Source of the DNA: Rhodoblastus acidophilus | Lineage (GTDB): Bacteria > Pseudomonadota > Alphaproteobacteria > Rhizobiales > Beijerinckiaceae | Reading direction: 5' to 3' | Assembly (NCBI RefSeq): GCF_025961575.1 | Contig: NZ_JAOQNX010000037.1 | Span: forward strand, 1-45,127 | DNA length: 45,127 bases | Shown: positions 8,505-36,954 of the stretch, piece by piece | Numbering within the stretch: the first letter of the stretch is position 1 | Layout: the number at the start of each line of letters is the position of its first letter | Position numbers and translations under genes: made by a program | The notes under the pieces: model-generated | The model's input: only the letters and a program-made list of their open reading frames with translations | What the model was told of the DNA's origin: nothing | Databases searched by the model: none

Positions 8505-8519
8505 GTCTTTGCCTTGTTC

Positions 8520-8547
8520 GGGCAAAGAAAATCCGCTCGCCGAAATG
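8520..8547 (-). promoter_or_regulatory. repC leader block shared with the 14947 gene
   Basis: A 28-base segment just upstream of repC is nearly the same (about 24 of 28) as 14971-14998, upstream of the winged-helix gene at 14060-14947. In both places a TTGAC box on the plus strand follows 10-12 bases later. In repABC plasmids this position is the translational and attenuation control region of repC. The significance is treated in the findings. Confidence 0.7.
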
Positions 8548-8559
8548 ACGCCAAAACTC

Positions 8560-8588
8560 TTGACACTGATTCGCGGAAGTGGGATTCT
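8560..8588 (+). promoter_or_regulatory. Promoter of the repB-repC counter-transcribed RNA
   Basis: On the plus strand, TTGACA (8560-8565) is followed after 17 bases by GATTCT (8583-8588). The -35 is perfect and the -10 is weak. Transcription would run opposite to repABC and start near 8595. Confidence 0.65.
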
Positions 8589-8594
8589 TTAAGC

Positions 8595-8650
8595 GCCAAC
8601 ATAAAGAAGGGGCTTCCGGAACGGCGACGTGACGGGGGCCTTTTTCTTTT
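8595..8650 (+). ncRNA. repABC counter-transcribed RNA (incompatibility RNA)
   Basis: A roughly 55-base transcript is predicted from the promoter at 8560-8588 to a Rho-independent terminator. The terminator stem is GGCTTCCG (8611-8618) with CGGGGGCC (8633-8640), including two G-U pairs, followed by TTTTTCTTTT. It lies in the 212-base gap between repB and repC, where repABC plasmids encode an antisense RNA that lowers RepC synthesis and sets incompatibility. The location, orientation and size fit; the exact ends are inferred. Confidence 0.7.
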
Positions 8651-8716
8651 GCCTGTGGTTCTCCGACTTAGTTGCGGTTTGGTCTGGCCGGCTCATTCCG
8701 ACCAGGCAAACGGTGT

Positions 8717-9736
8717 TCACTCCGGCAGATTGCCGGATTTAAATTCCTCGTAGAGCATCTCCAGCCTGTCTTTGACGAAGTCACCGAACTTCGGCGCGAC
8801 TCGATCGTCAAACACCAAGGTGAGCTTCTTCCCTGTCCGCGCGATCTTGGCAGCGTGCGTCCCGTCTTTCGCCGACCACGTTTCGGCACGACTGCGCGAT
8901 GACTTCTGACGCAGGCCAGCGGCAAGTGTCTCAAAGCGCTTATCCGTATCCAAGACCAGAAATTCGGGTGCTTTGACCATTTCAATCGCACGCGCGCGAT
9001 TGTTTTCCTGTTCGAGAAGGTCGCATAATTCCTGCCACCGCACGCGACCGAAGGCTGGGGCTGGCCCCACACCGTCAATTACTGTTCCCGGCACTCGGGT
9101 TGCGATCGAGATAAGGCGCGAAAGGGCGGCTTTGTCGACATTGAGCGACGCCATGATGATTTCGCGTGAAAATTTCCGTTCTTCTAGTCGGGCGGCAAAA
9201 CGCGCACGTTCGATAAAAGTGAGATCAGTTCGGCCACTGTTTTCCTGACCTTGCGCAATAACCAGTTGCTCATCCGTGAGGACCCGAACGACGGCTCTCA
9301 CTTTAATTCCAAGTTCGCGCGCCGCTCTCAGGCGACGGTGACCAAATGCGACTTCGTAACGCTCTGTCGCGCCGGGCTTGGGCCGTACGAGGATAGGAAC
9401 ATTCTGGCCATGCTGGCGAATTAGGTCGCGGAAGGCCGCACTTTGCTCTTCCGATGATTCCATGCGATCTGCGACGAAAGAATTGTCGATGATCGCTGGA
9501 TCAAGTTCAACGATCACCTGCCCTTCAATGAGCTTCTGCTCGATCTCCTCCGCGCGTTTCACCTTTTCCGAGATGCCGCCCAGCGACTGCGATATCGCAC
9601 CAAGCGCACCAGATGGTTTGACAGATCGCTCAAGCGCAAGAAGCGGGCGCGCGCGTTGCGGCGGTGCTTCATTAATCTCTGCCGTAGGCGTCACAGTCTC
9701 GGCCGCAGGAGGATCGAAATTGATTTTACGCGCCAT
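8717..9736 (-). CDS. repB: RepB (ParB-family) plasmid partition protein
   Basis: The 339-residue protein has the ParB N-terminal domain. This includes the arginine-patch motif GHRRLRAARELG and the ENSGRTDLTFIERARFAARL segment, followed by a helix-turn-helix for parS binding. The C-terminal part would dimerise. The start is 2 bases downstream of the repA stop. RepB binds centromere sites and stimulates the RepA ATPase. No perfect GTTNNNNGCNNNNAAC parS site was found by eye nearby. Confidence 0.93.
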   Translation of the reverse strand: MARKINFDPPAAETVTPTAEINEAPPQRARPLLALERSVKPSGALGAISQSLGGISEKVKRAEEIEQKLIEGQVIVELDPAIIDNSFVADRMESSEEQSAAFRDLIRQHGQNVPILVRPKPGATERYEVAFGHRRLRAARELGIKVRAVVRVLTDEQLVIAQGQENSGRTDLTFIERARFAARLEERKFSREIIMASLNVDKAALSRLISIATRVPGTVIDGVGPAPAFGRVRWQELCDLLEQENNRARAIEMVKAPEFLVLDTDKRFETLAAGLRQKSSRSRAETWSAKDGTHAAKIARTGKKLTLVFDDRVAPKFGDFVKDRLEMLYEEFKSGNLPE

Positions 9737-9738
9737 CC

Positions 9739-10938
9739 TTAGCTCCTGGCCCAGACTTGTTTGATCAAGCCTTCGATCTCGCCGTTCACCAAGTCGAGCG
9801 CTTCGATAGCTCGATCATAGGTGCCGCGCGTGAACTGCTGTCGTTCAACCTCATAAAGTGTCTGCTTCGTAAGTCCGGCGTCAGCGATAGCCGTGCTTTT
9901 CACCATCGGATGAGTCAATACGCGCGACCCGAAGATCGAACGCATTAGACCAACCATTGTCGTCTGCGGACCGTCACTAGGTTCGTATCGCGTGACGAGG
10001 TAGCGCATCCAATCGTATTGCGTTGCGCCGCCTGCGCGCGCTACCACATCAAGCAAGCTTCCGGTCATGTTGAGGAACTGAGACATCGACATGACGTCGA
10101 GCATCTGAGGATGGACGGTTATGAGAACCGCCGTCGCCGCGCAAAGTGCGGAAAGCGTAAGAAAGCCCAGTTGAGGCGGACAGTCGATCACAACGACGTC
10201 GTAAGCGTCGCTGACCTGAGCCAAAGCTTCGCCGATCCTTGCAAAAAACATAGAATCGTCGTTCTCGCGCGCCATCAGCGCCTTCGGCGTCTCGTGCTCA
10301 AACTCCATGAGTTCGAGCTGACCCGGGACAATGTGCAAGTTGGGCATATATGTGGCGCGCACGATTTCGCGCATATCTCTCCGGGCGTCATCGTAGCGGA
10401 TTGCGCCGTAGATCGTTTCGTTTTCACCAACATCGAGTTCGGGTTGATGCCCAAAGAGAGTTGAGAGACTCGCCTGCGGATCAAGATCAATTGCAAGAAC
10501 GCGGTAGCCTCGGAACGCAAGGTATTGAGCGAGGTGCGCCGCAGTGGTCGTCTTGCCGCTACCTCCTTTGAAGTTCATCACGGAGATGATCTGAAGGGCT
10601 TCGCCTTCACGCCGATGCGGAATGTAGCGGCGTGCACCCTTGCCGGCGCCATCGAGCTCGCTTCTCAGGCCATCAATGTCATCAATTGAATAGCTACGGC
10701 GGCCACTCGTTGGGGCTGGAGGGCCCTTCCCTTCAGAAACAAGCTGCCGAAGATAGCCCTCCGCGATGCCGATGAAACGCGCGGTCTCTGCTGACGAGAA
10801 GCGGCGGATTGTTTTCTCGGCCATTGGCGGGAAGTCACGAAGCTGCTGCGCCCGCAGCCGCGTAGAAAGCTCTGCCGCGTCGGCATTGATCAGTGAACGG
10901 AGATCCCGCACACTACCGTCAAGGGATTTGACTGACAT
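9739..10938 (-). CDS. repA: RepA (ParA-family) plasmid partition ATPase
   Basis: The 399-residue protein has an N-terminal HTH region of about 110 residues (FSSAETARFIGIAEGYLRQL). The deviant Walker A KGGSGKTT follows at 124-131, then VLAIDLDPQASLSTLFG and a Walker B VVVIDCPPQLGFL. The length and the N-terminal extension are typical of type Ib ParA / RepA. It drives segregation with RepB and represses its own operon. It is the first gene of repABC, so the operon promoter should lie in 10939-11100. Confidence 0.95.
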   Translation of the reverse strand: MSVKSLDGSVRDLRSLINADAAELSTRLRAQQLRDFPPMAEKTIRRFSSAETARFIGIAEGYLRQLVSEGKGPPAPTSGRRSYSIDDIDGLRSELDGAGKGARRYIPHRREGEALQIISVMNFKGGSGKTTTAAHLAQYLAFRGYRVLAIDLDPQASLSTLFGHQPELDVGENETIYGAIRYDDARRDMREIVRATYMPNLHIVPGQLELMEFEHETPKALMARENDDSMFFARIGEALAQVSDAYDVVVIDCPPQLGFLTLSALCAATAVLITVHPQMLDVMSMSQFLNMTGSLLDVVARAGGATQYDWMRYLVTRYEPSDGPQTTMVGLMRSIFGSRVLTHPMVKSTAIADAGLTKQTLYEVERQQFTRGTYDRAIEALDLVNGEIEGLIKQVWARS

Positions 10939-16336: not shown

Positions 16337-16640
16337 CGCGCTGTCGTTCACGCGATTATGAACAGCCTGTTCGCGACAGCAATCGCAACCGAGCCATCAT
16401 CCTGGCCAGCCGATTAGAGTGGCGCGCCCTCTCCCCTGGACGCAGACCCGCGCCAGAGTCTTTCTATCAATCCTGACAATTTCGTCATCACCGCCGATCT
16501 CCAGGATCGTCGGGTGATTTCGATTTTCTCGGGCTTCGCGCGAACTCGCGCATCAAAGAGCGCAACAGGATGCGCCGCTCCGCCAGGCGGAGCCGCCAAC
16601 CAAGCGATTGCAAGAGCCTTACGCTCCCCGAACGACGAGT
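16337..16640. other. Intergenic stretch with a GC hairpin
   Basis: Nothing coding is supported. A perfect 8-bp hairpin, GCTCCGCC-A-GGCGGAGC, lies at 16577-16593, about 50 bases before the helicase ATG. It has no T-run, so it is not a canonical terminator. Confidence 0.4.
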
Positions 16641-18884
16641 ATGGCGTTAGACTTCGGCGGCCCTGTCGCGCGATGCAGCGCCACGGTGTACGAGAGGTTC
16701 GAAGGCTTGGCCAACGCGCTGGAAACGCCGCATAAGGAAACGCTGGTCGGTTCGGTCGAACGGGTCACCTTCCACAACGAGGACAACGGCTTCGCCGTCC
16801 TGAAGGTGAAAGCGCGAGGCCACCGTGACCTGGTTCCCGTGGTCGGCCATGCGGCGTCGATTTCCGCCGGCGAGTTCATCCACGCCGTCGGCGTCTGGTT
16901 CACCGACCGGACGCATGGGCTTCAGTTCAAGGCCGATTTCCTCAAGACCACGCCGCCGACGACCGCCGAGGGGATTGAGAAATACCTCGGCTCCGGCATG
17001 GTGCGCGGCATTGGCCCCAAGCTCGCGCAGCGCATCGTCGCGGCTTTCGGGGCGGCGACTTTCGAGATCATCGAGGCGGAGCCGGCGAAGCTCAGAGAGG
17101 TGTCAGGCATTGGCGAGATGCGCGCGACGCGGATCGCCGCCGGCTGGGCCGAGCAGAAGGCCGTGCGCGACATCATGGTGTTCCTGCACGCCAATGGCGT
17201 GGGCACCTCGCGCGCGGTGCGGATCTTCAAAACCTATGGTCATGACGCCATCCAGGTGATGACGGAGAACCCGTACCGTCTGGCGCGCGACATCCGGGGC
17301 ATCGGCTTCCGCACCGCCGACGCCATCGCCATGAGGCTCGGGCTGACCAAGGAATCCCCGCAGCGGCTGCGCGCGGGCGTCTCCTTCGCCTTGCAGGAAG
17401 CAACCGACGACGGTCACTGCGGATTGCCGAGGGCCGAACTGATCCGGTCGGCGAGCGACCTGCTCGATGTCCCCGCTGGCCCGATCGAGACCGCGCTGGC
17501 CGAGGAACTGCTGGCGGGCGAAGTCGTCGCCGACGCCATCGAGGGAACAGAGTGTATTTTCCTGCGTGGCCTGCATATCGCCGAAAAGGGCGCCGCTGAC
17601 CGGCTCCTCTTCCTGTGCGACGGCAAGACGCCGTGGCCGGAGATCGACGCCCCTGTCGCCGTCGCTTGGGTCGAGAGAAAGACGGGGAAGACGCTGGCGG
17701 CGTCTCAGCGCGAAGCCGTCGCCATGGCGTTGAGATCGAAGGTTTTGGTCGTGACCGGAGGCCCTGGCGTCGGCAAGACCACCCTGCTCGACGCCATCCT
17801 GAGAATCCTGACGGCCAAAAGCACGAAAATCCTGCTCGCGGCGCCGACGGGCCGCGCCGCCAAGCGCATGACCGAGCAGACCGGAATGGAGGCGAAGACC
17901 ATCCATCGGCTGCTCGAGACCGACCCGAAGGAAGGCGGCTTCAAGCGCGGCGCCGAAAATCCGCTCGACTGCGACCTGTTGGTGGTCGACGAGGCCAGCA
18001 TGATCGACGCCTCCCTCATGTTTTCGTTGCTCAAGGCTTTGCCCGTCAGCTCGGGCCTGATTCTGGTGGGCGACGTCGACCAGCTTCCCTCCGTCGGTCC
18101 CGGGCGGGTTCTCGCCGACATCATCGAATCCGGCGCGCTTCCCGTCGCCCGCCTGACCGAAGTGTTTCGGCAGGCGGCGGAAAGCCGGATTGTCGTCGGC
18201 GCGCACCGAATCAATGAGGGGAAAATGCCGGAATGGCCGCGGCGCGGCGAAGACGCCGATTTCTTCTTTGTCGAGGCGGGTTCTCCAGAGGAAGGGGCCG
18301 CCAAGGTCTTGGAGATCGTGCGCGATCGCATCCCGCGCCGGTTCGGCATGGACGCGGTCGGCGACGTGCAGGTGCTGTGCCCAATGCAGCGGGGTGCGCT
18401 GGGCGCGCGGGCGCTCAACGCCGACCTGCAGAAGGCGCTGAACCCCAATCCGGTCGACAAGATCGAGCGGTTTGGATCGGTGTTTGCGCCCGGCGACAAG
18501 ATTATGCAGACCGACAACGACTACGACCGCGAGGTTTTCAACGGTGACCTTGGGCGCGTCGTCCGCATTGATCGGGAGGAAGGGGCCCTGGTTGTCAGCT
18601 TCGACGGACGTGAGGTGACCTACTCGTTCGGCGAGCTGGACGCTCTCGTGCCCGCATACGCCACCACCATTCACAAGTCGCAAGGGTCAGAATATCCCGC
18701 CGTTGTCGTGACACTGGCGACCCAGCACTACACCATGCTGGCGCGCAACCTCGTCTACACGGCGGTCACCCGCGGGAAGCGGCTGGTCGTGATCGTCGGG
18801 CAGAAGCGGGCCTTGGCCATCGCCATCCGGAACGTGCGAACAATCAGGCGCTGGACAAAATTGAGGGAGTGGCTGGCACGATAG
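16641..18884 (+). CDS. recD2: RecD2-type ATP-dependent DNA helicase
   Basis: About 747 residues from the ATG at 16641; a TTG start 11 codons upstream is possible. The N-terminal domain (ETLVGSVERVTFHNEDNGFA, then VLKVKA) and the helix-hairpin-helix region (LGSGMVRGIGPKLAQRIV, EVSGIGEMRATRIAAGW) are those of RecD2. The SF1B motor follows, with Walker A GGPGVGKTT near residue 372, Walker B VVDEASMID near 449, VGDVDQLPSVGPG, and the C-terminal motif ATTIHKSQGSEYPAVVV. RecD2 proteins are 5'-3' helicases acting in repair outside RecBCD. The length is normal and all motifs are present. Confidence 0.93.
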   Translation: MALDFGGPVARCSATVYERFEGLANALETPHKETLVGSVERVTFHNEDNGFAVLKVKARGHRDLVPVVGHAASISAGEFIHAVGVWFTDRTHGLQFKADFLKTTPPTTAEGIEKYLGSGMVRGIGPKLAQRIVAAFGAATFEIIEAEPAKLREVSGIGEMRATRIAAGWAEQKAVRDIMVFLHANGVGTSRAVRIFKTYGHDAIQVMTENPYRLARDIRGIGFRTADAIAMRLGLTKESPQRLRAGVSFALQEATDDGHCGLPRAELIRSASDLLDVPAGPIETALAEELLAGEVVADAIEGTECIFLRGLHIAEKGAADRLLFLCDGKTPWPEIDAPVAVAWVERKTGKTLAASQREAVAMALRSKVLVVTGGPGVGKTTLLDAILRILTAKSTKILLAAPTGRAAKRMTEQTGMEAKTIHRLLETDPKEGGFKRGAENPLDCDLLVVDEASMIDASLMFSLLKALPVSSGLILVGDVDQLPSVGPGRVLADIIESGALPVARLTEVFRQAAESRIVVGAHRINEGKMPEWPRRGEDADFFFVEAGSPEEGAAKVLEIVRDRIPRRFGMDAVGDVQVLCPMQRGALGARALNADLQKALNPNPVDKIERFGSVFAPGDKIMQTDNDYDREVFNGDLGRVVRIDREEGALVVSFDGREVTYSFGELDALVPAYATTIHKSQGSEYPAVVVTLATQHYTMLARNLVYTAVTRGKRLVVIVGQKRALAIAIRNVRTIRRWTKLREWLAR

Positions 18885-19025: not shown

Positions 19026-20420
19026 TCAGAGCGCGATCTGATTGAGGATTACGCGGTCCTTGATTTTGGTCTCGTCGCAGAGCAATTGCGCCTTGGACAG
19101 AATGAGCGAAAGCACGTCGTCGCCCGCGAAGGGCAAGGGCACGCCGCCGAGATCGCCGCCGCCCTCCCCGCGCACGATGCAGACATGCTGGTTCTTGCCG
19201 ACGATGCGCACGGCGGCATTGCCGCAATGGATGGCGTAGCTGTGCCATTCGCCGCTCACGATCAGGTGGTTATGCTCCATGCGGCAGCGCCCGGCGATCG
19301 CCAGTTTGGGAACCAGCCATTCCAGCATTTCCGCGCGCAGGATCGCGCTCTCGCCAAACGCCTGCAGCGAGAGATTGTCGTCGATGCCCAGCGCGCCCCG
19401 GTCGAATTCCGGCGGCGGCGGCTCCGCCTCGGCGCCGGGATCGGCCCATTGCGGATCTAGACCGAGGACGCTGGCGCCGGTGACCGTATCGATGTCGAAC
19501 AGCACCTCGGCGAAAGCCAGAGCCGGAACATTTTCCAACGCCACGGGGCGCGCGTCGGCGCCGTTGATCTCGGCGGCGCGGTAGAATCGGATTTGCGACG
19601 TGGCGAAATTGGCAAAATTGGGCGCGGCATAGCCGCCGTGGTTCTCCTGCACGGCGCCGCAGCCGCGTCCCCAGAATTCCGCCACCAGCCCGAAGCCCGG
19701 CAGGTCGAGCCGCGCGGGATGGAATTTTTTCGGGACGCAATTGAGCATCCGTGAATGCAGCGCCCAGCCCCGGTTGCGCAGGATGCGCACGAAAACCGGC
19801 TGGTTGAGGATCAGGCCCGCGAAACGGTTGCTGTAGGTCGCGGTCGCCAACTCCGCCTCGGTGAGCCGATAGACCGGACGCCACAATTGGCGGATCGGCT
19901 GGCGCAGACCGCCCGCCGTCAAGGCTGCGCGCCAGCGCGCATTTGTTTCCGGCGTCTCCATCAGGGGATGCCAGAGTTTGACGCGGCAATCTCCTTCCGG
20001 CGCCGCATGGGTTTCGCCATCGGGGCCGTGCAGGTCCGACGCGGTCCCGAAGGCGACGAAAGGCGCGCGATTCCGGGGTTCGAAGCGCCACAGCAGGCGC
20101 GCGGCCAACGTGGCGATCAGGGGATGATCGGGGTAGCGCGCGCGCCAGTCGCCGAACCGCCAGTCGCGGCCCGTGCGCCAGGTCAGCTCCAGCCTTTTTC
20201 GCGCCTCGGCCAGCGCCGCATCGATGTCGGCGCGTCGGGCCTTGAGCGCATCCACGTCTTCGCGCGCGAAAGGTTCGGATGCGGGCAGGCGCTTGAACGC
20301 CTTGCCGCCGGGGTCGAGATAGCTGACGCTGGTATGGCCCAGCGGCGAAAGGGCGATCAGCGCCGTCCAGTCGCCGAGTGGAAATTTCGCGACGCGAGGA
20401 GGAGGATCAAGTGAAATCAT
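19026..20420 (-). CDS. Stand-alone DUF4132 (MolR C-terminal) domain protein
   Basis: The 464-residue protein consists of the C-terminal part of MolR/DUF4132 proteins. This includes WRFGDWRARYPDHPLIATLA, then ARLLWRFE, VKLWHPLMETPETNARWRAA, QLWRPVYRLTEAELATATYS plus NRFAGLIL, and RFYRAAEINGADARPVALEN plus VPALAFAEVLFDIDTV. In the family this domain is fused to a helical-repeat half. Here it is separate, and its ATG (20418-20420) overlaps the stop of the previous gene by 14 bases. The function is unknown; the family name comes from an old molybdate link that is not secure. It is the last gene of the five-gene operon. Confidence 0.8.
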   Translation of the reverse strand: MISLDPPPRVAKFPLGDWTALIALSPLGHTSVSYLDPGGKAFKRLPASEPFAREDVDALKARRADIDAALAEARKRLELTWRTGRDWRFGDWRARYPDHPLIATLAARLLWRFEPRNRAPFVAFGTASDLHGPDGETHAAPEGDCRVKLWHPLMETPETNARWRAALTAGGLRQPIRQLWRPVYRLTEAELATATYSNRFAGLILNQPVFVRILRNRGWALHSRMLNCVPKKFHPARLDLPGFGLVAEFWGRGCGAVQENHGGYAAPNFANFATSQIRFYRAAEINGADARPVALENVPALAFAEVLFDIDTVTGASVLGLDPQWADPGAEAEPPPPEFDRGALGIDDNLSLQAFGESAILRAEMLEWLVPKLAIAGRCRMEHNHLIVSGEWHSYAIHCGNAAVRIVGKNQHVCIVRGEGGGDLGGVPLPFAGDDVLSLILSKAQLLCDETKIKDRVILNQIAL

Positions 20421-22107
20421 AGGCGGGCACGCTGATTTCCTCGATATCCGCCGCCGCGACGCCGCGCGCCTTGGCGATGGTCACCATGGCGCGGTCCACG
20501 GCATTGCTGATGCCGTTGTCGTCGAAATCGCGCTTCAGGCGCCCGAGCGTTTCCATGGCTTGCTGAGAGCCGACGAGAGCCATGCCCTTGATCGCGGCAT
20601 TGGCCACGGCGCGCGAGGGGAGCCGGACGGGCATGGCGGCGCGCGCCACTCGCTCGAAGATCTCCGCAGCATCGGGAGGCGGATTGTCCGCGACGAGCCA
20701 GATCGCGCCCTTGAGCAGCCTCTGGTTGGCAACGGTCGCCAAATGGCAATCCCAGGAGTGGCGATAGGGTGGGTCGTCGTCATAGGAAGCCCTTGGCGCG
20801 TCCCAGCCGAAAGCATGCACCAGGAAGAAACTCAGGGACGTTTCCGACACGCTGAAGCCGAGCGTCACCAGCGCAACCCATTCCGCGAGACCATCGACCT
20901 GCGCTGGGGGCAAGGAAGGCCAGTGCGGGAATTGCATCGCAAAGGTCGCGGCTTCGAGTTGGTAGCTGTGCAGGAAGAACAATTCCCTTAGCGCGTCCTC
21001 AGAACCTCCGGGCGTGTGGTAGAGCGAAAGCCAGGACAGGCAGCGCCGCCGGGCTTCCTCGGCGCCGATGGGCTTGATCGCGACGTTCAATCGCTTTTTC
21101 CACCCTGCCGTCGGCGCGGCGGCGTCGGGCGTCTCCGCGAGGACCGCCAGCAGCGCCCAGTCTTCGGGCTTTCCCGACGCGAGAATATGTTCGGCGCCGG
21201 GAATGAAATCCTGATCCCATTCATGTTCGGCCAGCGGCGCGAACCGCGCGCACAGGGCGTCGAAGTCTTCGCGTGAAAGGGTGCGCGGCGCACGGAACGG
21301 CGCCTGTTTGGCAAACGGGCCGGTCTTGGGTGGATGCAAGCCGCCGAAATTGCGGTAGTCGAAGGGCCTGTCCAGATCCTTGTGGGTCCAGAACCCGAAA
21401 GTGCGCGGCAAGACGCCATCTTCGGGAAACCGAAGCGAAAAGGCTTCACGGTCCTTCGTCCAGACTGGCATATCGGCTTGTGTCAGTTCCGCGATCAGGG
21501 CCTCGGCCTGCGCGGCGACCTTTTGAAAGAACGCGCACCAGAAGTCGAAATCGGGCGGCGGCGGCCGGAAACGACAGGGCGAGGGCCGCGCGATCGCACG
21601 CTTTTTCACCGCGTCCAGCGGATCGATTTCGATGCCGGCGAAGCGGCGCAATTGGTCCTGAAGGGCTTTCGCCTCACGCTCTTGGGTCGCCCCCTTGATG
21701 GGCGCCTTTGCGCAATGCGCCCACAACGCGGCGAAAGCTGCCTTGTCGTCGTCAGTAAAGCGGATTCCATCCCGCTCGGCCTCCGCGAGATAGACCGCGA
21801 AGGGCGCCACGCGCGCATGGCCGCAAGTTGCGAAACTGGTGAGGAGCATTCGGGCCATGGCGCCGACAAGGTCGGCGCGTATCGGCAGACCGTGCTGCAT
21901 GGCGACGAAAATCAAGCCGTCGAGCACGCCGGTTTCGGGTCGCAATCGCACCTGCGCGTGCTTGTCGGCGTCCAGCGCCAGCAGCACATCGGCGCGACGG
22001 TCGTCGTTGGCCGCCTCGGGCGCGAGTTGCGCCAGGAACCACATCCGCAGACTGGCCGAATCCGACGCGGCGCTGGGAAGAACCCTGGAGAATTCAATGG
22101 AAGCCAT
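20407..22107 (-). CDS. MolR/DUF4132 N-terminal-type helical-repeat protein, paralogue 3
   Basis: 566 residues from the ATG at 22105-22107; a TTG five codons upstream is possible. It shares with its two upstream neighbours the FDFWCAFFQKV segment and the PVWTKDREAFSLRFPEDGVL motif. Near the C-terminus it has the HEAT-like 'NQRLLKGAIWLVADNPPPDA' region and ends ARGVAAADIEEISVPAYDF plus T. In full-length MolR proteins, this ending leads straight into the DUF4132 domain, which here begins in the next gene. The 14-base overlaps at both ends imply tight translational coupling. The product probably works in a complex with the 19026-20420 product. Confidence 0.75.
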   Translation of the reverse strand: MASIEFSRVLPSAASDSASLRMWFLAQLAPEAANDDRRADVLLALDADKHAQVRLRPETGVLDGLIFVAMQHGLPIRADLVGAMARMLLTSFATCGHARVAPFAVYLAEAERDGIRFTDDDKAAFAALWAHCAKAPIKGATQEREAKALQDQLRRFAGIEIDPLDAVKKRAIARPSPCRFRPPPPDFDFWCAFFQKVAAQAEALIAELTQADMPVWTKDREAFSLRFPEDGVLPRTFGFWTHKDLDRPFDYRNFGGLHPPKTGPFAKQAPFRAPRTLSREDFDALCARFAPLAEHEWDQDFIPGAEHILASGKPEDWALLAVLAETPDAAAPTAGWKKRLNVAIKPIGAEEARRRCLSWLSLYHTPGGSEDALRELFFLHSYQLEAATFAMQFPHWPSLPPAQVDGLAEWVALVTLGFSVSETSLSFFLVHAFGWDAPRASYDDDPPYRHSWDCHLATVANQRLLKGAIWLVADNPPPDAAEIFERVARAAMPVRLPSRAVANAAIKGMALVGSQQAMETLGRLKRDFDDNGISNAVDRAMVTIAKARGVAAADIEEISVPAYDFT

Positions 22108-23836
22108 AGGACGGCGCTCCAAGCTCTTCGAGGTCGGCGGCGGCGATGCCCTGTTTCGCGGCCGCCTTGGCGAGAAGTTTCGCCACCATATTGGCGATGG
22201 CCTTGTCCTTGATCGCGCGGCGCAGGCGGGTCAGCGCCTCCAGCGCCGCAGGCGAATCCTCGGCGGCGAGCGCGTTGAGCGCCGCATTGGCGGCCGCACG
22301 CGCGCGCAAGACCCTGTCGATGGCGACCGTGGCCGTGCGTTCCAATATTTCCACCGTGTCAGGACCGGGTCCTTCCGCCAGCGCCCAGATCGCGCCGCGC
22401 AGCAGCAATTCATTTTCTAGCGTCAGGCGGTAAACATTGGTTGCGATCCCCCAGCCAAAATAGCTTTGGCCGCGATCGTCGGGATAGATGATTTTTGGCG
22501 CGTCGGGAGCGCGCCGGTCGCGCTCCCATTGGACAAAAGCGTGAAGCGACCAGCGATGGCCATCGGGATAGGCAAGGCAGACCAGCGCAACCCAGCGCGC
22601 AAGACGCGCCAAAGCCTCGGCGTCGAGGCTGCGCCAAGCCGGGAAATTCAACTCGAACGTCGCCGCCATCAAGCCATAGGCGTGGCAGAAGTTGAGGTCC
22701 TCGATCCTGTCGGCCAGCGCGCCGGGACGATGGAACACCTCCAACCATGCGGCGACGCGGCGGCGCGCTTCCTCGACGCCAATGGCATCGGCGGCGGCGC
22801 GCAGCCGTTTCAGCCAAGCCTTGCCCGGCGTCGGCGTATCCGGCGTTTCCGCGAGAACGGCGACAAAAGCCAGATCGTCAGCTTTTCGGTCCGCCGCCAG
22901 CAGATCGGCCGCGGGAATCCAGTTCCGGCTCCAGTCGTGATCGGCAAGAGTCGCGACTTCGGCGCTCAATGCGTCGAAAGCTTCGCGACCCAGGCTGCGA
23001 ATGCCCCGATATTCGGCAAAGCCGGTCCTGCGGCCTGCATTGCGCAGCGGCTTGAAATCGGTGCGGTCCCAGCTCGCGGGCAAGCCGAGTTCCGACCGGC
23101 GCCAGATGGCGAATTCGCGGGGAACCAGACCGTCTTCAGGAAAGCGTTCGGCGAATTTTGCTTCGGATCTCGTCCAGTCGGGCAGGTTCTTGGCCTTGAG
23201 CTCCTTGGCCAGCATATCGGCTTCGCGCGAGACGGCGACGAAGAAATCGCACCAAAAGTCGAAGAAAGGCGGCGGCGGGCGCAGGCGGTTGCAGGAGGGT
23301 TCGGCGTCGAGTCGCTCGCTTATGGCGCTCAGCGCATCAGGCGTTCGCTGGGCGAGGCGGTTGAGCGTCGCGATGGTCTCGCGCGTCTCGCGCTCGCTTT
23401 CGCGCAGGCTTCGGTGCGGATTTTTCTCCAGCCGATCCGCCAGCTTTACCAGCAGGATGCGGTCGGATCGCGTCAGCACGCCTCCGGCTTGCGCCCCCCG
23501 GTTGAGGATATTGGCGAAGTCATGGCTGAGCATGTGCGTGTAGCCAGAATGTCTGTCGTTTTCCAGGATCACGCGAACAACGATCGCGATCAGGTCGGAT
23601 CGCAGCCGCAGGTCGAAACGCAGAAACGACGTGAACGCGAGGCCATCCATGTCGCCCGGTTCGAGGCCGATCCTGAACTGCGCTTCGGTCGCCAGGGCGA
23701 TCAGAAGATCGGCGCGCTGTTCCGGCGAAAGCGGCATCAGGAATTCGTGGCCCCGACGCTCGGATGCCGCGCCTTTCCAAGCCTCGACAAGTGATGGAGC
23801 CGGTTTCGGCTCGCCACCGAACAATCTTTTCAGCAT
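22094..23836 (-). CDS. MolR/DUF4132 N-terminal-type helical-repeat protein, paralogue 2
   Basis: The 580-residue protein begins MLKRLFGGEPKP. It carries FFDFWCDFFVAVSREADMLA, LPDWTRSEAKFAERFPEDGL, NELLLRGAIWALAEGPGPDT and the closing motif KQGIAAADLEELGAPSYGF plus H. It has no DUF4132 C-terminal domain, so it is a shortened family member. It is clearly homologous along its length to the neighbours at 20407 and 23870. No catalytic motif or signal peptide is seen. A role as a scaffold or adaptor is inference. Confidence 0.75.
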   Translation of the reverse strand: MLKRLFGGEPKPAPSLVEAWKGAASERRGHEFLMPLSPEQRADLLIALATEAQFRIGLEPGDMDGLAFTSFLRFDLRLRSDLIAIVVRVILENDRHSGYTHMLSHDFANILNRGAQAGGVLTRSDRILLVKLADRLEKNPHRSLRESERETRETIATLNRLAQRTPDALSAISERLDAEPSCNRLRPPPPFFDFWCDFFVAVSREADMLAKELKAKNLPDWTRSEAKFAERFPEDGLVPREFAIWRRSELGLPASWDRTDFKPLRNAGRRTGFAEYRGIRSLGREAFDALSAEVATLADHDWSRNWIPAADLLAADRKADDLAFVAVLAETPDTPTPGKAWLKRLRAAADAIGVEEARRRVAAWLEVFHRPGALADRIEDLNFCHAYGLMAATFELNFPAWRSLDAEALARLARWVALVCLAYPDGHRWSLHAFVQWERDRRAPDAPKIIYPDDRGQSYFGWGIATNVYRLTLENELLLRGAIWALAEGPGPDTVEILERTATVAIDRVLRARAAANAALNALAAEDSPAALEALTRLRRAIKDKAIANMVAKLLAKAAAKQGIAAADLEELGAPSYGFH

Positions 23837-23869
23837 CGAACTTCCGCGCCCCCGCCCTCGAAGATTTCA

Positions 23870-25600
23870 TCATGCGAAATCATAAGTCGGCGCTCCCAGC
23901 TCTTCGAGATCGGCGGCGGCGACGCCCTGTCTGGCGGCCGCCTTTTCGAGCGCCTTGGCCACGGCATTGGCTAAATTTTTGTCCACGATGGCGCGCCGCA
24001 ATCGCGTCAGAGCCTGCAAAGCCTCAATGGAGCCGTGGGCGGCGAGCGCGTTGATCGCGGCATTGGCGCCGATGCGCGAGCGCGCCGCAATGGTCGCGGC
24101 CACGCCTGCGATGCGTTCGAGTCGATCCACCGTGTCGGGCGCCGGCCATTCCGCCAGCGCCCAGATGGCGCCGCGAAGCAGCAGATCGTTTTCCAGCGTC
24201 AAATGGCAGCAATCCGGGTTGATGATAGTTCCGTAAGGGCTTCGTCCCTCGGGATGGCAAATCTCCGGGGCCGGCGCGTCACGTCGCGCGCAGTCCCATT
24301 CGAGAAAGGCGGCAAAGGACCAGACCCGTCCGTCGGACGCGCCGAGACAAACGACAGCGACCCAGCGCGCCAGAGGCGCGAGCGCCGTGTCGTCGCAATT
24401 TTTCCAATCGGGAAAGGCCAGTTCATAGGCGTGCGCCTCCAGAGCGAAACGGTGACAGAAGGCGAGATCCGCCAGCCTGTCTGCCGTCGCGCCGGGTCGG
24501 TGAAAGATATCCAGCCAGGAGGCGACCCGGCGCCGGGCTTCATCGAAGCCAATCGCCTCTGCGGCCACGCGCAACTGCCTGAGCCAGTCCTTGCTAGGTC
24601 TGGCCGCGTCCGGCGCTGCGGCGAGCGTGGCGAGGAAGGCGAGGTCCCGGGGTTCGCGCTCCGGCGCCAGACGCTCGGCGGCGGGAATCCATGGCTGGTT
24701 CCATTGATGAGCGGCAAGCGCTTCCAGTTCGTCGCGCAAGGCCACAAAAGCCTTTTCATCTATGGCGCGCAGGCCACGAAATTCGGCAAAGTCCGCGGCG
24801 CGGCTCGGCTTGCGCAGCGGCGCGAATTGGCTGCAGTCGCGCCAGCGGGGACCGACTTGCGTCCAGAAGCCGAACGCACGCAACGTCAGCCCGTCCGGCG
24901 GAAAGCGTTCGGCGAATTTCGCTGCGTCGCGGGTCCAAACGGGCAGGCTCTTGCCCTTCAGTTCCTTGGCGAGCGTTTCGGCCTCGCGCGAGACCGCGAG
25001 GAAGAAACGGCTCCAGAAGTCGAAATGCGGCGGAAGCGGACGGAAACGATTGGGCGAGGGCGTGGCTTCCAGCCGCTTGACGATGGCCTCGTTGGGATCG
25101 ACGAGGCGACCGGCCCAGAGGTTGAGCGTCGCCAGAGCCCGCAGCGCCTGCCTTTCATAACTGCGCCGGCATTCGTGGACATGCTCTTCCAGCGTTTCGG
25201 CGAGGCGCTTCAGATCGGCGCGTTCAGCGCTGCCGAGCGTGAGTCCTGCCGCGCCGCCGCGTTCGAGATAGTCGGCGAGCGGGAAGCAGCTCAAGGCGGA
25301 AAAGCCGGCGACGCTTGCATCGCGCTCGATCTTGCGAACCATGGCGACGACAATATCCGGGCGGATCGGCAAACTCGCGAACGCCCAGACAATGGTGTGC
25401 AACGCCATGGCGATGTCGGACGGGTTCAACCGAGTCCGCGCCGGGAAATCCGTATCGACCATGGCCAGCAGCAACCGGCCGCGATCTTCGCTGCTCCATT
25501 GATGCAGTACGCCCAAGCCCTGGCGCGACTCGACGGCATGTTCAAGTTCGCGCAAGCGCGCATCCAAATCATCCGGCGGCGCGCAATTCCCCTGCAACAT
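23870..25600 (-). CDS. MolR/DUF4132 N-terminal-type helical-repeat protein, paralogue 1
   Basis: 576 residues from the ATG at 25598-25600, which has a GAGGAG ribosome site about 8 bases upstream; this favours it over the TTG at 25615. It shares HFDFWSRFFLAVSREAETLA, LPVWTRDAAKFAERFPPDGL, NDLLLRGAIWALAEWPAPDT and RQGVAAADLEELGAPTYDF with the other paralogues. It is the second gene of the operon, 11 bases after the ubiquitin-like gene. Like paralogue 2, it lacks the DUF4132 domain. Confidence 0.75.
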   Translation of the reverse strand: MLQGNCAPPDDLDARLRELEHAVESRQGLGVLHQWSSEDRGRLLLAMVDTDFPARTRLNPSDIAMALHTIVWAFASLPIRPDIVVAMVRKIERDASVAGFSALSCFPLADYLERGGAAGLTLGSAERADLKRLAETLEEHVHECRRSYERQALRALATLNLWAGRLVDPNEAIVKRLEATPSPNRFRPLPPHFDFWSRFFLAVSREAETLAKELKGKSLPVWTRDAAKFAERFPPDGLTLRAFGFWTQVGPRWRDCSQFAPLRKPSRAADFAEFRGLRAIDEKAFVALRDELEALAAHQWNQPWIPAAERLAPEREPRDLAFLATLAAAPDAARPSKDWLRQLRVAAEAIGFDEARRRVASWLDIFHRPGATADRLADLAFCHRFALEAHAYELAFPDWKNCDDTALAPLARWVAVVCLGASDGRVWSFAAFLEWDCARRDAPAPEICHPEGRSPYGTIINPDCCHLTLENDLLLRGAIWALAEWPAPDTVDRLERIAGVAATIAARSRIGANAAINALAAHGSIEALQALTRLRRAIVDKNLANAVAKALEKAAARQGVAAADLEELGAPTYDFA

Positions 25601-25611
25601 CAAGCTGCTCC

Positions 25612-25968
25612 TCAACCGCCGCGCAGCGGTACGAGTTTTAGGAAAACCACTTCGGTGGTCGTGGAGAGATCGATGCGTTCCTGCGGGTCCGTGACTTGGC
25701 GGTCGTTGACGATCAGGAAAAACGCGCCGCGCGCAAAGGCCTTTACGGCGCGGGCGGCGATCTCGTCGACCAATGTGTCGAGCCCGTCGCGCAACTCGGC
25801 ATAAAGCCGGCTTGGCGCGGCACCGCAGGCGATCTTGTCCGCCTCAGCGCGCACCCGCTCCTCGATCAGCGTCGAAGCCAGAACAATCCGGCTTTCGCTC
25901 CAGTCGAAAGTGAAGGAAACCTCATCGCGCCGGGCATTCGCGGCGTCACGGATCAGTACCTTGGCCAT
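25612..25968 (-). CDS. Ubiquitin-like beta-grasp protein with C-terminal Gly-Gly
   Basis: 118 residues from the ATG at 25966-25968. The first two strands are KVLIRDA (3-8) and DEVSFTFDW (15-23). A helical stretch (about 28-80, longer than usual) follows, then FFLIVNDRQVTD (83-94) and EVVFLKLVPLRGG (106-118). The closing strand and the free Leu-Arg-Gly-Gly end match the ThiS/MoaD/ubiquitin pattern, in which the terminal glycine is adenylated and linked to sulfur or a target. It is the first gene of a tight operon with four DUF4132-related genes. No E1-like, E2-like or protease gene is in view. A plain structural beta-grasp subunit is the main alternative. Confidence 0.6.
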   Translation of the reverse strand: MAKVLIRDAANARRDEVSFTFDWSESRIVLASTLIEERVRAEADKIACGAAPSRLYAELRDGLDTLVDEIAARAVKAFARGAFFLIVNDRQVTDPQERIDLSTTTEVVFLKLVPLRGG

Positions 25969-31860: not shown

Positions 31861-34800
31861 TCAAGCGGCTGCGGCGATCGGCTCGTTGTAGTCCGCTTCG
31901 CTCTTCGTCGTCGCGAGCGAGGCGTTGATCTCGGCGAGTTCGGCCCGCTTTTCGGCCAGTTCGTCGTTGAACTGGAAACGTGCGCCGAGGCGCGCCGCCA
32001 GCGACGGAAGCCACGTCTCGGCCTGGGCGATGGTGGCGTTCTCGTCCCGCAAATCGGCCTCGAACCGCGAGAGCACATGCTCGATGCGAGAGATCAGGCC
32101 CAGCGGCGTCAGGTCGCCGTCCGTCTCGATCGTCTCGTTCGATCCGGTGCGCGCCATCACCAGGGCGGGATAGCCGAACATGCTCTTGATGAAGCGCAGG
32201 TCGAAACCGCCGATGGCGCCGATCCGGTGCGGACTGAAGCTCTTGGTCGCGGCGCGGTTCTTGACCACATGCTTCAACAGCAACGATCCCGCCTCCTTGC
32301 GGTCCGTGAACGACCTTTCGTCGATGGTCATCGCAAAGGCGTCGCCGCGCGTAGAGCGGCGCTTAGCGATGTCGGCCTCGATCTGGGTGATGCGCAGGCG
32401 CGCGCGTTCCGCGTTGTTGCGCATCCGCTCGATCTTGCCGCGCAGCATGATCTGCTCGTCAAAATGATTGTCGCGCAGGCGCTCGAGGCGGGCGATCTCC
32501 GCCTCGACGCCGGCCTTGCGCATCAGGCGCTCGTCGCCGGACGCAATCGCCTTGGCGAGGCCGAACTGGTTGGCCTGGGCGCCAACATCCTCGATCCGGC
32601 GGATCGAACGGTCGCCGGACATGGCCATTTCGATGAACCGGGCCTTGCGTTCGAGCGTCTGCCAGCCGGTCGCGTCGACGCTGCCCTTGGTCGCATAGGC
32701 GTAGAGCTCGATTTCCTCGTTCTGATTGCCCTGGCGCTCGATGCGGCCCTCGCGCTGCTCGACCTGGGAAGGCAGCCAGGGCACGTCGAGATGGTGGAGC
32801 GCGACGAGGCGTTTTTGCGCGTTGACGCCAGTGCCCATGGTTTCGGACGAGCCGATCAGAATGCGCTTCTTGCCGCCGTTCATGTCGTTGAACAGGCGCT
32901 GCTTGGCCGCGGAACGCTTAAAATCCTGCATGAAGGCGATTTCGGACGCCGGGACGCCGCGCGCGATCAGGGTCTCCCTGATCCACAGATAGGCGGAGAA
33001 TCCGCGCGACTCGGCGACGGACGGCGTGCCCAGGTCGGAAAAGATCATCTGGGTGGCGCCGGGGGTTGGGTCGGTTGTTCCGTCCGGGCGGCGATAGCGT
33101 CGGTCCGAGGTGTCGCGCCAGATTTGGAAGACCTTGTCGATCAGCGCGTTGAGCTTGCTTTCGGGCTCGTTGGCGTGATCGGGGTAGGTGAAGCGCAGGT
33201 CGATCGCGGCGTGGCGGCCGTCGGTGATGACCGACAGCAGGATGTCGTCGCCCTTCTTCGGGCGTCCCTGGCGGTTCTCGATCGCCTTGATCCGCTGCGC
33301 GAGCACCTTCTGGTAAGCTTTGAAGGCGGGCGTCGCCGGCGCGGTGATGATCTGGCGCTGTCCGGAGGCGATCCTCGGCAGCTTCAGGTTCTCGCGAAGG
33401 TCGGATTTGAGCACGACGTCGGCGAAATCCCGGAACATCGAGATCAGTTCGGGCACGTTGACGAATTGCGCGAACCGGGTCACGGGCTTGTAGATGCCCC
33501 AGGGCTGCAATTCGAGGTCGGTCGTCGTCTCGCCGAACGAGGCCGCCCAGGCGTCGAACTCCTGAATGCCGCGCTCCTCCAGCATGTCCGGCTGGAAGAA
33601 CCGCTGGATCGTGTACATTTCGCCGAGCGTGTTGGTGATCGGCGTGCCCGACGCGGCGATCAGCGCGCGTTCGGTGCGGCGGTTCAGCGCCAGGAAGCGG
33701 GTTTTCACATAGAGGTCCCAGGCGCGCTGCGAGCCGTCGGGATCGACGCCCTTCAGCGTGCTCTGGTTGGTGGTGAAGGACAATTTCCGGAACTCCTGCA
33801 TCTCGTCGACGATGATCTGGTCGACGCCGATCTCGGCGATGGTCAGCATGTCGTCCTTGCGGCTCTGCAGGGCCTCAAGCTTGGCCTCGATGCCCTCCTT
33901 CATGCGCTCCAGGCGCTTGATCGAGACGCGGTCCTCCTTGTCGATGCGGCTCATCAGCTCGGCGTAAGAGGCGAGCTGGTCGGCGATCAGGCCCTCCTCG
34001 AATTTCGCGGGGGTGGCGATGAACTTGAAGGCCGAATGGGTGATGATGATGCAGTCCCAATTGGCCGTCGCGGCGCGGGCGAGGAAGCGCTGGCGCTTGT
34101 CCTTGGCGAAATTGGTCTCATCCGCGACCAGGATGCGGGCGGTCGGATAGAGCTGCAGGAACTCGCGCGCGGCCTGGGCCAGGCAATGGCCGGGCACGGT
34201 CATCATCGGCTTGGTGATCAGAGCCAGCCGCTTCTGCTCCATCACGGCCGCCGCGAGCGTAAACGTTTTGCCGGCGCCGACGGCGTGGGCGACATAGGTC
34301 GAGCCGGCGGCCAGAATGCGCCAGATCGCGCGCTTCTGGTGGGAATAGAACTTGATCACGCTGGAGGCGCCGGGGATCGTCAGATGCGATCCGTCGAAGC
34401 AGCGCGGCACGAGATTGTTGAAGCGCTCGTTGTAGAGCTTCGCCAGGGTTTCGGCGCGCTCCGCGTCGGTCCAGATCCAGTTCTCGAACGCCTGCTTGAT
34501 CTTGGCCAGCTTGTCCTTGGCCGCTTCTGTGTCGGGCGCGTTGAGCACGCGCTTGGTGACGCCGTCTTCCTGGTATTCGTCGTAAATCTGCGGGATGCGC
34601 GAATTGAGCGCGTCGATCATGAGCTCGCCGGCGTGGCGGCGCAGCGTGCCCCAGTCCGAAGTCGAAGCCGGGTTTTGCTGGAAGGCGCTGGCGGTCACGG
34701 TCCAGCAGGCGATTTCGACGGTGTGATAGATCAGCGTCTTCACGCCCATGATCTCTTCGCAGAATTTGGCGATGACCTCGGCCGGAATCCACGGTGCGCC

Positions 34801-36954
34801 GAGGCGGGCGGTGATCTCGGAGGGTTTCAGGTCTTCCGGCAGGGCCTCCTTCAACGCGTCCACATTGCGCTGGAAGCGGGGGTTGGACATTGCGGCTTCG
34901 GTAGCCGCGGCGAGGCGTTTGCGGATGTCGCCAGAGAGATAGGCGTCGGCGGTGTGCCAGAGTTCTACATTTGTTCCATGCGCGATTGGGTCGAGAAAAA
35001 TCCGGTCGCCGAGGTCGGCGATGACCGCCTCGCGGGTGACGCCCAAAAGTTCCGCGATCCGGTCGACGTCGACCGTGCCGGTCTCGTGCAGCACGACCGC
35101 GAGCGCGTCAGCCGCGCTGGTGATCTCCGGCGTGGTCGGCGGATGCAGCACGCGCTGGCTGAAGATCGGGCCCTGGCTGGCGTGGCCGCTTTCCACGTCA
35201 TAGTCCTCGATCGAGGCGACCAGCCAGACGTCGGGATCGTCGAGGAAGGGCTGGAGATTGGGCCGGCGCACGGTTTCGCGGATGTCGCCGTCGGCAGTGG
35301 TGGTTTCGGAAATGGTGGTGAGGTTGATCGGGCCGAAGTCGCGCTTGAAATGGGCGTAGGCCGAGCGCAGCCGCACCTGGGCGACGCCCCACGGCTGATC
35401 GGCGGCCTGCGCGCGCAAAACCTCGCGAACGGCGTCACGGACCTGGATCAAGCCGCGAATGATGCGGGCGTGTTTGGCGGGAATGCCTTCTGTGCCCTTG
35501 CCCTGGCGGACCGCGACCGGGACCGGCCTGCCGTTGATGATCTGCGCCAGGCTGTTCTTGACGACGAGATAGCTGCCCTCCTTGATCGTGGCGCCTTCGG
35601 CGGCGGTGCCGACGTCGATCGTTTCGCCGTCGAGGTCGAGCAGGTCGTTCAGTTCCTTGGGAAGCTGCGGCCGGGGCGCGTAGATCGCGGGCGGGACGGA
35701 ATAGAGCGCCTCGATCAGGCGGCGGAACAGCGCCGGTTCGTTGGCGTGGGTCGGAAGGCAAGTGTAGGTCGGGCCATAGGCGCTGGTGGTGCGGGCGTGC
35801 GCGCCGAGCGTCATGGCGGGATGCGCCACGAAATATTGGTTGATGCGCAGTTCGTCCTCGCCATCCTCGGCCGGCAGGATCGCGTCGAGTTCGATCCAGT
35901 TCGCCGCTTTGGGAGCTTGGTCCTGGTCGCGTTTCTGGAAGATCAGCACGTCGACCACGACGTCGGTCCCGGCGCCGGCGCGCATGGCGCCTTCCGGCAA
36001 GCGAACGGCGCAGAGCAGGTCGGCCATGGAGGCGATGAACGTGCGGGCTGTCGCGTCGGTCTTGTCCATGGTCCAGCGGCTCGTGACGAAAGCGGCGATT
36101 CCGCCCGGGCGCAGGCGTTCGATCGAGCGCGCGATGAAATAGTCGTGCAGCGACAGATTGAGCGCGCCGACGGGGTCGCTTCCCCGCACGGTGCGGGTGC
36201 TGAACGGCGGATTGCCGATGACCAGGTCGTAGTTGTCGGGCAGGCGCGCCTTGGTGAAATCCTCGTTGCGAATTTGGGCGTTCGGAAAGAGGAGTTTGGT
36301 GATTTTCGCCGTGACCGGATCGAGTTCGACGCCGGTCAGGGTGGTCTTGTCGGCGAGCGCATCCGGCAGCATCGAGAAAAACAGTCCGGAGCCGCAACCG
36401 GGCTCCAGCACGCGGCCTTCGGAGAATCCTATACGGCGCAGCGCCTTCCACATGGCGCGGATGATGAATTCCGGCGTGAAATGCGCGTATTGGGTGACGC
36501 GCGCGAGGCTCGCCAGTTCGGTCGGCGAGACCAGCTGTTCGAGCTCCTGGCCGAGCGTTTCCCAGCCTTTCGGCAGAGCCTCGTCGGCGGCGCGGCGGAA
36601 CAGATTGTTGGCGAGATCGCCTGCGCCGAATGAGATGAATCGCGCCAACCGGCTCTGTTCCTCCGGCGTCGCATTGCGCGCCTCACCCTCGATCTGCTGC
36701 ATCAGGCGGATGGCGGCGAGATTGTCGGCGGCGCGGGATTTCCAGTCGGAGGCGAGAGGCCGCGATCCCCGGAGCCGGAAGTTTCGCGCGGGAGTCGCAA
36801 CCGGCTTCGCGACGGAGCCCTGGTCTTCGGCTTCGGGCTCGTCGTCTTCGGCGGGTTCGCCGAGAGACAGGCCGGAATAGAGCCCGAACGCGCCCGTGCT
36901 CAAAGCGGTGGTGTCGAACAGCGGCAAGGTCATTTGATCAATGGATTTTTTCAT
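31861..36954 (-). CDS. DarB-like N6-adenine methyltransferase / SF2 helicase
   Basis: The 1697-residue protein has an SAM-binding motif (VLEPGCGSGLFFSML near 187) and the amino-methyltransferase catalytic motif NPPF (IGNPPFSTRT, near 247). The helicase part has a Walker A variant HAVGAGKTFTLAAAV (near 893), a motif II VDEMQEF (near 1050, DEMQ in place of DEAH), a GTPITN motif and a motif VI QVEQREGRIERQG (near 1403). Homologues on phage P1 (DarB) and many plasmids protect incoming DNA from type I restriction, probably by methylation or remodelling. All key motifs are present. ArdC is encoded next upstream. Confidence 0.88.
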   Translation of the reverse strand: MKKSIDQMTLPLFDTTALSTGAFGLYSGLSLGEPAEDDEPEAEDQGSVAKPVATPARNFRLRGSRPLASDWKSRAADNLAAIRLMQQIEGEARNATPEEQSRLARFISFGAGDLANNLFRRAADEALPKGWETLGQELEQLVSPTELASLARVTQYAHFTPEFIIRAMWKALRRIGFSEGRVLEPGCGSGLFFSMLPDALADKTTLTGVELDPVTAKITKLLFPNAQIRNEDFTKARLPDNYDLVIGNPPFSTRTVRGSDPVGALNLSLHDYFIARSIERLRPGGIAAFVTSRWTMDKTDATARTFIASMADLLCAVRLPEGAMRAGAGTDVVVDVLIFQKRDQDQAPKAANWIELDAILPAEDGEDELRINQYFVAHPAMTLGAHARTTSAYGPTYTCLPTHANEPALFRRLIEALYSVPPAIYAPRPQLPKELNDLLDLDGETIDVGTAAEGATIKEGSYLVVKNSLAQIINGRPVPVAVRQGKGTEGIPAKHARIIRGLIQVRDAVREVLRAQAADQPWGVAQVRLRSAYAHFKRDFGPINLTTISETTTADGDIRETVRRPNLQPFLDDPDVWLVASIEDYDVESGHASQGPIFSQRVLHPPTTPEITSAADALAVVLHETGTVDVDRIAELLGVTREAVIADLGDRIFLDPIAHGTNVELWHTADAYLSGDIRKRLAAATEAAMSNPRFQRNVDALKEALPEDLKPSEITARLGAPWIPAEVIAKFCEEIMGVKTLIYHTVEIACWTVTASAFQQNPASTSDWGTLRRHAGELMIDALNSRIPQIYDEYQEDGVTKRVLNAPDTEAAKDKLAKIKQAFENWIWTDAERAETLAKLYNERFNNLVPRCFDGSHLTIPGASSVIKFYSHQKRAIWRILAAGSTYVAHAVGAGKTFTLAAAVMEQKRLALITKPMMTVPGHCLAQAAREFLQLYPTARILVADETNFAKDKRQRFLARAATANWDCIIITHSAFKFIATPAKFEEGLIADQLASYAELMSRIDKEDRVSIKRLERMKEGIEAKLEALQSRKDDMLTIAEIGVDQIIVDEMQEFRKLSFTTNQSTLKGVDPDGSQRAWDLYVKTRFLALNRRTERALIAASGTPITNTLGEMYTIQRFFQPDMLEERGIQEFDAWAASFGETTTDLELQPWGIYKPVTRFAQFVNVPELISMFRDFADVVLKSDLRENLKLPRIASGQRQIITAPATPAFKAYQKVLAQRIKAIENRQGRPKKGDDILLSVITDGRHAAIDLRFTYPDHANEPESKLNALIDKVFQIWRDTSDRRYRRPDGTTDPTPGATQMIFSDLGTPSVAESRGFSAYLWIRETLIARGVPASEIAFMQDFKRSAAKQRLFNDMNGGKKRILIGSSETMGTGVNAQKRLVALHHLDVPWLPSQVEQREGRIERQGNQNEEIELYAYATKGSVDATGWQTLERKARFIEMAMSGDRSIRRIEDVGAQANQFGLAKAIASGDERLMRKAGVEAEIARLERLRDNHFDEQIMLRGKIERMRNNAERARLRITQIEADIAKRRSTRGDAFAMTIDERSFTDRKEAGSLLLKHVVKNRAATKSFSPHRIGAIGGFDLRFIKSMFGYPALVMARTGSNETIETDGDLTPLGLISRIEHVLSRFEADLRDENATIAQAETWLPSLAARLGARFQFNDELAEKRAELAEINASLATTKSEADYNEPIAAAA

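Follow-up and report, generated by a model that had tools for sequence, protein, structure and literature searches.

Introduction

The sulphur carriers MoaD and ThiS end in Gly-Gly, and the same terminus is found in the ubiquitin-like protein (Ubl) described here, the product of the first gene of an operon on a contig of Rhodoblastus acidophilus (45,127 bp, one of 80 in a 4.9-Mb genome) the whole of which is referred to below as the window. The Ubl is encoded together with a partner protein carrying the domains DUF4132 and DUF7737, and the two constitute a real, recurrent two-gene ubiquitin-like system, recognised by the family itself, its linkage, its tail and, in two relatives, an adjacent activating-enzyme (E1) gene, together with a predicted fold. 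MoaD is the top, if weak, fold match of the Ubl. Unlike MoaD and ThiS, however, the Ubl is longer, has an extra helix and gives no sequence-profile match to them, and the genome encodes two ordinary ThiS/MoaD proteins besides. Where loci and genomes have to be told apart they carry the prefixes L and G, and the genome from which the window comes is called its own genome.

The E1/JAB/Ubl operons of types 6a-6e (Iyer, 2006, PMC1779556) likewise contain a small Ubl with a conserved C-terminal glycine, and type 6d also encodes a protein with invariant polar residues. However, these operons carry E1 and JAB, whereas here an E1 was seen at 2 of 54 loci and neither JAB nor E2 was noted among the flanking gene families listed (25 of 96). 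Escherichia coli YehI has DUF4132 and the stretch preceding it in common with the partner, but its profile match ends before the YSNR and DUF7737 parts, and its gene is surrounded by MoxR, vWA and SWIM genes with no Ubl hit within the 24 kb read. The association of DUF4132 with MoxR/vWA genes stated in an earlier note on the window (the original prediction) therefore applies to YehI-type proteins and was not seen for the DUF4132-DUF7737 subfamily, no MoxR or vWA gene being present in the operon, the other nine window open reading frames (ORFs) scanned or the listed flanking families. A homologous pair with a Gly-Gly tail, DRA0165-DRA0166, occurs in Deinococcus radiodurans, although DRA0166 comprises 1626 residues as opposed to about 820 in the usual partner.

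Linkage and distribution of the gene pair

All genome contigs were scanned with a partner-only query (A4, four proteins, the genomes of two of which recur as L017 and L022), yielding 54 loci. Judged by their record titles, these belong to the Proteobacteria, Planctomycetes, Acidobacteria, Armatimonadetes, Chloroflexi, Actinobacteria, Bacteroidetes, Verrucomicrobia, Myxococcales and Melainabacteria/Obscuribacterales. A Ubl was present at 47 of the 54, mostly directly upstream of the partner and, in 43 of 46 measured pairs, at a spacing of -14 to +54 bp, and the linkage of Ubl and DUF4132 genes that had been anticipated is thus recurrent. The order was reversed in L052, with the Ubl downstream of the partner, and L060 was frameshifted. 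Of the seven loci without a Ubl, the contig end truncates L024 and L062, the partner gene of L058 is partial and preceded by less than 1 kb, L070 holds a 258-residue partner remnant, and no Ubl was present in 8 kb of flank at L025, L026 and L043. Elsewhere in the genome, a Ubl was found for L024, L025, L026 and L043, and the search found none for L058, L062 and L070. For the Melainabacteria locus L026, this Ubl (L114, positions 6888-7328) has a Gly-Gly tail and lies apart from the DUF4132 gene, with no partner in the surrounding 14 kb.

Within the order, a Ubl-only search marked three genomes out of 150, its own genome counted, and the hit at L004 adjoins a DUF4132 protein and has a Gly-Gly tail. 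DUF7737 was matched among 289 genomes of the class in its own genome, G317 and G426, with a partial match in G296, and the Ubl profile, run against 385 genomes, marked its own genome, G317, G426 and one noise-level hit, in G082 (E 0.008, internal stop), which was discarded. Among 398 genomes of the phylum, the Ubl and complete DUF7737 marked the same three (its own genome, G549 and G708), a further DUF7737 fragment of 32 positions being present in G105. The Bacteroidota sample contained DUF7737 in 9 of 287 genomes; at ten places examined in this phylum, all nine full-length DUF7737 genes had a Ubl homologue nearby (Gly-Gly in four of the nine) and the one fragment had none.

Tree distances of Ubl and partner were correlated (r 0.745 over 42 pairs; maximum of 2000 permutations 0.278), an agreement which is expected from joint inheritance and is no proof of binding. 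No third gene family recurred convincingly at the loci. Among plasmids, the window Ubl alone gave zero matches, and matches to the L028 partner were obtained in 14 records; in the nine that were read, a Gly-Gly Ubl was found in Novosphingobium and four Deinococcus records and a G-R-L-W tail in Bacteroides, and no Ubl was found in the Nonomuraea, Acetobacter and Burkholderia records. A viral origin was rejected, as the partner alignment A6 yielded 19 pattern matches and zero relatives among viral contigs and the L028 partner had no match among phage records.

Tail and predicted fold of the Ubl

The Ubl of the window terminates in EVVFLKLVPLRGG immediately ahead of the stop codon, which bears out the free Gly-Gly end originally claimed for a 118-residue first protein. 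Across the 54 loci the tail could be read in 46 homologues and is Gly-Gly in 45 of them (the exception, L020, has Gly-Ser), as opposed to 1 of 427 ORFs called mechanically in the neighbourhood, so that its recurrence exceeds chance; the residues preceding it are conserved as protein. The question raised earlier of whether Gly-Gly is invariant among orthologues is thus answered differently for this main clade, where it very nearly is, and for the long type of Bacteroidota described below, which is devoid of it. An orphan Ubl with the tail KLAA was also observed (L016, positions 6235-6600) in genome G113 (86% complete), in which DUF7737 gave no match.

In the AlphaFold2 (AF2) model of the window protein, the succession of elements is compatible with a beta-grasp that has an additional long helix ahead of the third strand. 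The two top Foldseek matches were human MoaD (probability 0.98 and 0.97, E 0.064 and 0.083), with none at E<=0.001, and the proposed relation to ThiS, MoaD and ubiquitin therefore leans towards the beta-grasp, but at this modest level. The ThiS family PF02597 was matched by 2 of 46 Ubl members (best E 0.13) and no Pfam family covers the Ubl; it is a member of a recurrent family of MoaD-like/ubiquitin-like proteins that lacks a Pfam model.

The partner protein and E1 enzymes

The domains PF13569 (DUF4132) and PF24879 (DUF7737) both scored over the cut-off in 46/46 partners of alignment A6, which includes 46 of 55 sequences, nine partial or odd ones having been excluded. Invariant in all 46 were R76, H99, H151, Q174, Q178, R181, Y184, E190, N198, R199, E305, D311, R362, Y395, H398, D434, K443, D455 and Q461, and C414 of DUF7737 was present in 45. 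As the partners share only 28-37% identity with the window protein, this polar invariance suggests that the DUF4132-DUF7737 protein is an enzyme. The L052 partner, which is outside the alignment, has a different residue at N198. No convincing sequence relatives were found in the PDB. At L024 (positions 3-4138) a tandem pair of DUF4132-DUF7737 genes was observed, the first truncated by the contig end.

The original prediction held that the window lacks an E1 and that any activation would depend on a host enzyme. None was indeed found among the 14 window ORFs scanned; one full ThiF-family E1 is encoded elsewhere in its own genome, and in two relatives the E1 is part of the locus. ThiF was present in 47/47 genomes with a Ubl-bearing locus but also in 12/14 controls, so presence alone barely discriminates. 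When 94 of the 186 flanking proteins listed were scanned, two matched ThiF, one in Aureisphaera galaxeae (L051) and one in a Flavobacteriaceae metagenome-assembled genome (L060), and in both the E1 is the next gene, beginning where the DUF4132 gene stops. With 1-5 ThiF matches per genome, the chance expectation for an adjacent E1 was roughly estimated at well under one.

Covariation of the tail with the DUF7737 cysteine

Partners were tabulated at 75 places, and in 61 both the tail and the Cys column could be read; those excluded were ten without a local Ubl (seven of which keep the Cys), the frameshifted L060 and the truncated ORFs L065, L067 and L069. Gly-Gly and Cys occurred together in 53 pairs, neither occurred in six, and one pair each had Gly-Gly only and Cys only, amounting to agreement in 59/61. 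In the Bacteroidota long type (L137-L141 and L122) the Ubl homologue has the tail G-x-[YL]-W and the partner is without the DUF7737 Cys, and four Deinococcus long-type pairs retain both features. The covariation may represent one evolutionary event and is regarded as a lead, not as proof.

The counterpart in Deinococcus radiodurans

At the D. radiodurans locus (L121), a 134-residue protein (SEP068184, tail LTALAGG) is encoded two bases before the DUF4132 protein, with trxC upstream, and is homologous to the Ubl family (hhalign to alignment A5, probability 98.7). By gene order after trxC, L121 is assigned to DRA0164-DRA0165-DRA0166; trxC is not annotated next to three other Deinococcus loci read. 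According to PMC8533742, a radiation/desiccation response motif (RDRM) lies 83 bp upstream of drA0165, depletion of DdrO strongly upregulates drA0165-drA0166, and tagged DRA0166 rises after mitomycin C in an IrrE-dependent manner. Contrary to this, the RDRM was not found according to PMC9650054, which further reports that deletion of DRA0165 leads to higher antioxidant activity, that DRA0165 binds Trx1 and that its predicted structure is like MoaD and SAMP1; there the protein is described as Deinococcus-only, and the main text never uses the word ubiquitin. The MoaD likeness of this one family member is thus already published and not new. In the PMC literature searched, we found neither the broad family nor the DUF4132-DUF7737 pairing, the tail rule, the covariation with the Cys or the operons with an E1, and no mention of DUF7737, PF24879 or PF13569; DUF4132 occurs there in three papers.

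Proposed mechanism and alternatives

Most likely, the Ubl is activated by an E1 and DUF4132-DUF7737 is its dedicated enzyme. The two would then form a two-component system in which the E1-activated Ubl is used by DUF4132-DUF7737 as a transferase or thiolase, a reading to which a probability of roughly 0.5 is given; chemical activation of the Ubl is, taken by itself, probable, and the chances that the partner is an enzyme using the Ubl are about even. The Ubl, with its predicted MoaD-like fold and its conserved tail, is made with a ready Gly-Gly terminus. A ThiF/MoeB-type E1, as a rule the cell's general one but in two Flavobacteria one encoded directly after the partner, would adenylate its terminal glycine. 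The activated Ubl would pass to DUF4132-DUF7737, whose invariant polar residues would act on its C terminus; Cys414, and perhaps also His398, are candidates for the acceptor or nucleophile. Either the Ubl or its sulphur would then be transferred to a substrate bound by the helical N-terminal half. In the window, which has three divergent paralogues of that half, one core might serve several adaptors. A more elaborate scheme, offered tentatively, is a minimal tagging pathway in which DUF4132-DUF7737 would combine the functions of E2 and E3, accept the Ubl on Cys414 and recruit substrates via the helical half, with a role in DNA damage in Deinococcus and three adaptors in the window.

Several points weigh against activation of the Ubl and its use by the partner. 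The adenylate, the thioester and the conjugate are all predictions from sequence, and an E1 was seen at only 2/54 loci. The similarity to MoaD is weak, the predicted local distance difference test (pLDDT) score is near 60 over the initial ~20 residues of the Ubl model, hhalign profile comparison of the Ubl with ThiS/MoaD from relatives gave a probability of 1 or less, and the core fold was without a match in the PDB or the viral BFVD at E<=0.001. L040 has Gly-Gly without the Cys and L020 the Cys with Gly-Ser, and all six double losses fall in the Bacteroidota long type (~1700 residues), perhaps as a single event; given its tail, the long-type Ubl may function without activation. Finally, N- and C-terminally tagged DRA0165 recover the same 157 proteins according to PMC9650054, which lends no support to Gly-Gly-dependent binding.

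A rather unlikely alternative, which shares the activation step with the preferred mechanism, is that the Ubl is thiocarboxylated as a sulphur carrier and that DUF4132-DUF7737 thiolates a small molecule, tRNA or protein, with no conjugation taking place. The top fold match to MoaD is consistent with this, the pairing of a single Ubl with a single large, dedicated partner resembles MoaD-MoaE and ThiS-ThiG, and DRA0165 has been likened to MoaD and SAMP1 in PMC9650054. However, no rhodanese or cysteine desulphurase was noted among the listed flanking families, and the helical repeats would suggest a macromolecular substrate. Were the Ubl instead a non-covalent subunit, with no activation and with a tail that fits into a groove of DUF7737 and owes its conservation to binding only, this would agree with the 52/54 loci at which no E1 was seen and with the Bacteroidota long type, which keeps the pair with G-x-[YL]-W tails and no Cys; but the free Gly-Gly in 45/46 homologues, its agreement with the Cys and the two adjacent E1 genes argue against it, and we consider it unlikely.

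Many pairs overlap or nearly touch, placing the final Ubl codons near the next start, and the glycine codons might in principle be kept as the Shine-Dalgarno sequence of the downstream gene. Such an artefact is very improbable, being disfavoured by mixed codons (fifteen different GGN-GGN combinations, in which each of the two third positions shows every base), by the persistence of Gly-Gly where Ubl and partner genes are 24 to 725 bp apart and in L052 with the Ubl after the partner (starts being script-chosen), and by the protein-level conservation ahead of the glycines.

Operon organisation and contig setting

The five minus-strand genes overlap their neighbours or lie no more than 33 bp from them (Table 1), as first described. 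The accompanying claim of four DUF4132/MolR-related genes had to be revised, as only the 464-residue gene has DUF4132 (and DUF7737). The three middle genes (571-581 residues) have nothing in Pfam/NCBIfam above the curated cut-off; they are mutual paralogues, with 51 and 39% identity to the first, and align with the N-terminal half of the usual ~820-residue partner up to the point where DUF4132 begins. Two stretches in their C-terminal half match, in the same order, the region preceding DUF4132 in fused homologues. As judged from these alignments, the partner is divided in the window between one C-terminal core and three versions of an N-terminal half. No stand-alone N-terminal-half genes resembling these three were found in the other loci examined, save ORFs truncated by locus ends.

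Table 1. Positions of the operon genes, domains and residues in the window. E-values for the paralogues are from a search of three sequences with a profile built from 45 partners, window sequence excluded.
Feature	Position	Strand	Remarks
Ubl (MoaD-like), 118 aa, tail PLRGG	25612-25968	-	ATG start; AF2 pLDDT 81.8; top Foldseek match human MoaD, E 0.064
Terminal Gly-Gly codons	25615-25620	-	46/47 tails, window counted
N-terminal-half paralogue 1, 581 aa from TTG (576 aa from ATG at 25600)	23870-25615	-	profile match E 8.3e-27
N-terminal-half paralogue 2, 580 aa	22094-23836	-	profile match E 1e-27
N-terminal-half paralogue 3, 571 aa from TTG	20407-22122	-	profile match E 5.3e-24
DUF4132-DUF7737 core protein, 464 aa, presumed enzyme	19026-20420	-	AF2 pLDDT 84.5; invariant polar residues
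DUF4132 domain (PF13569)	19764-20306	-	Pfam, E 1.1e-36
DUF7737 domain (PF24879)	19035-19340	-	Pfam, E 2.4e-25
His398 and Cys414 in DUF7737	19227-19229 and 19179-19181	-	codon places computed from ORF

RepC, RepB and ParA/RepA-type genes lie at window positions 7209-10938, so the operon probably sits on a repABC plasmid or chromid; no overlap between the contig ends was found at the lengths tried. A RecD2-type helicase gene (16608-18884) adjoins the operon on the opposite strand. Further along the window are a 1697-residue protein with weak N6-methylase matches together with an anti-restriction protein of the ArdC type that contains a zincin domain (31861-38208), and a protein with five Sel1 repeats (42007-43362). 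Scanning four of the five operon proteins and the L028 pair with the PADLOC defence models gave no system match and a single weak hit (E 0.038).

Significance

These results link two uncharacterised protein families with a Gly-Gly Ubl across many bacterial phyla, point to an undescribed protein-tagging or sulphur-transfer system, and turn a gene published as Deinococcus-only into a member of a broad family. The terminal glycine and Cys414 provide a testable residue pair, and for D. radiodurans deletion, tagging and expression data have already been published. If the Ubl is conjugated, this would be a bacterial tagging route with neither E2 nor JAB adjacent, and, if true, it would bear on the origin of ubiquitin systems from sulphur carriers.

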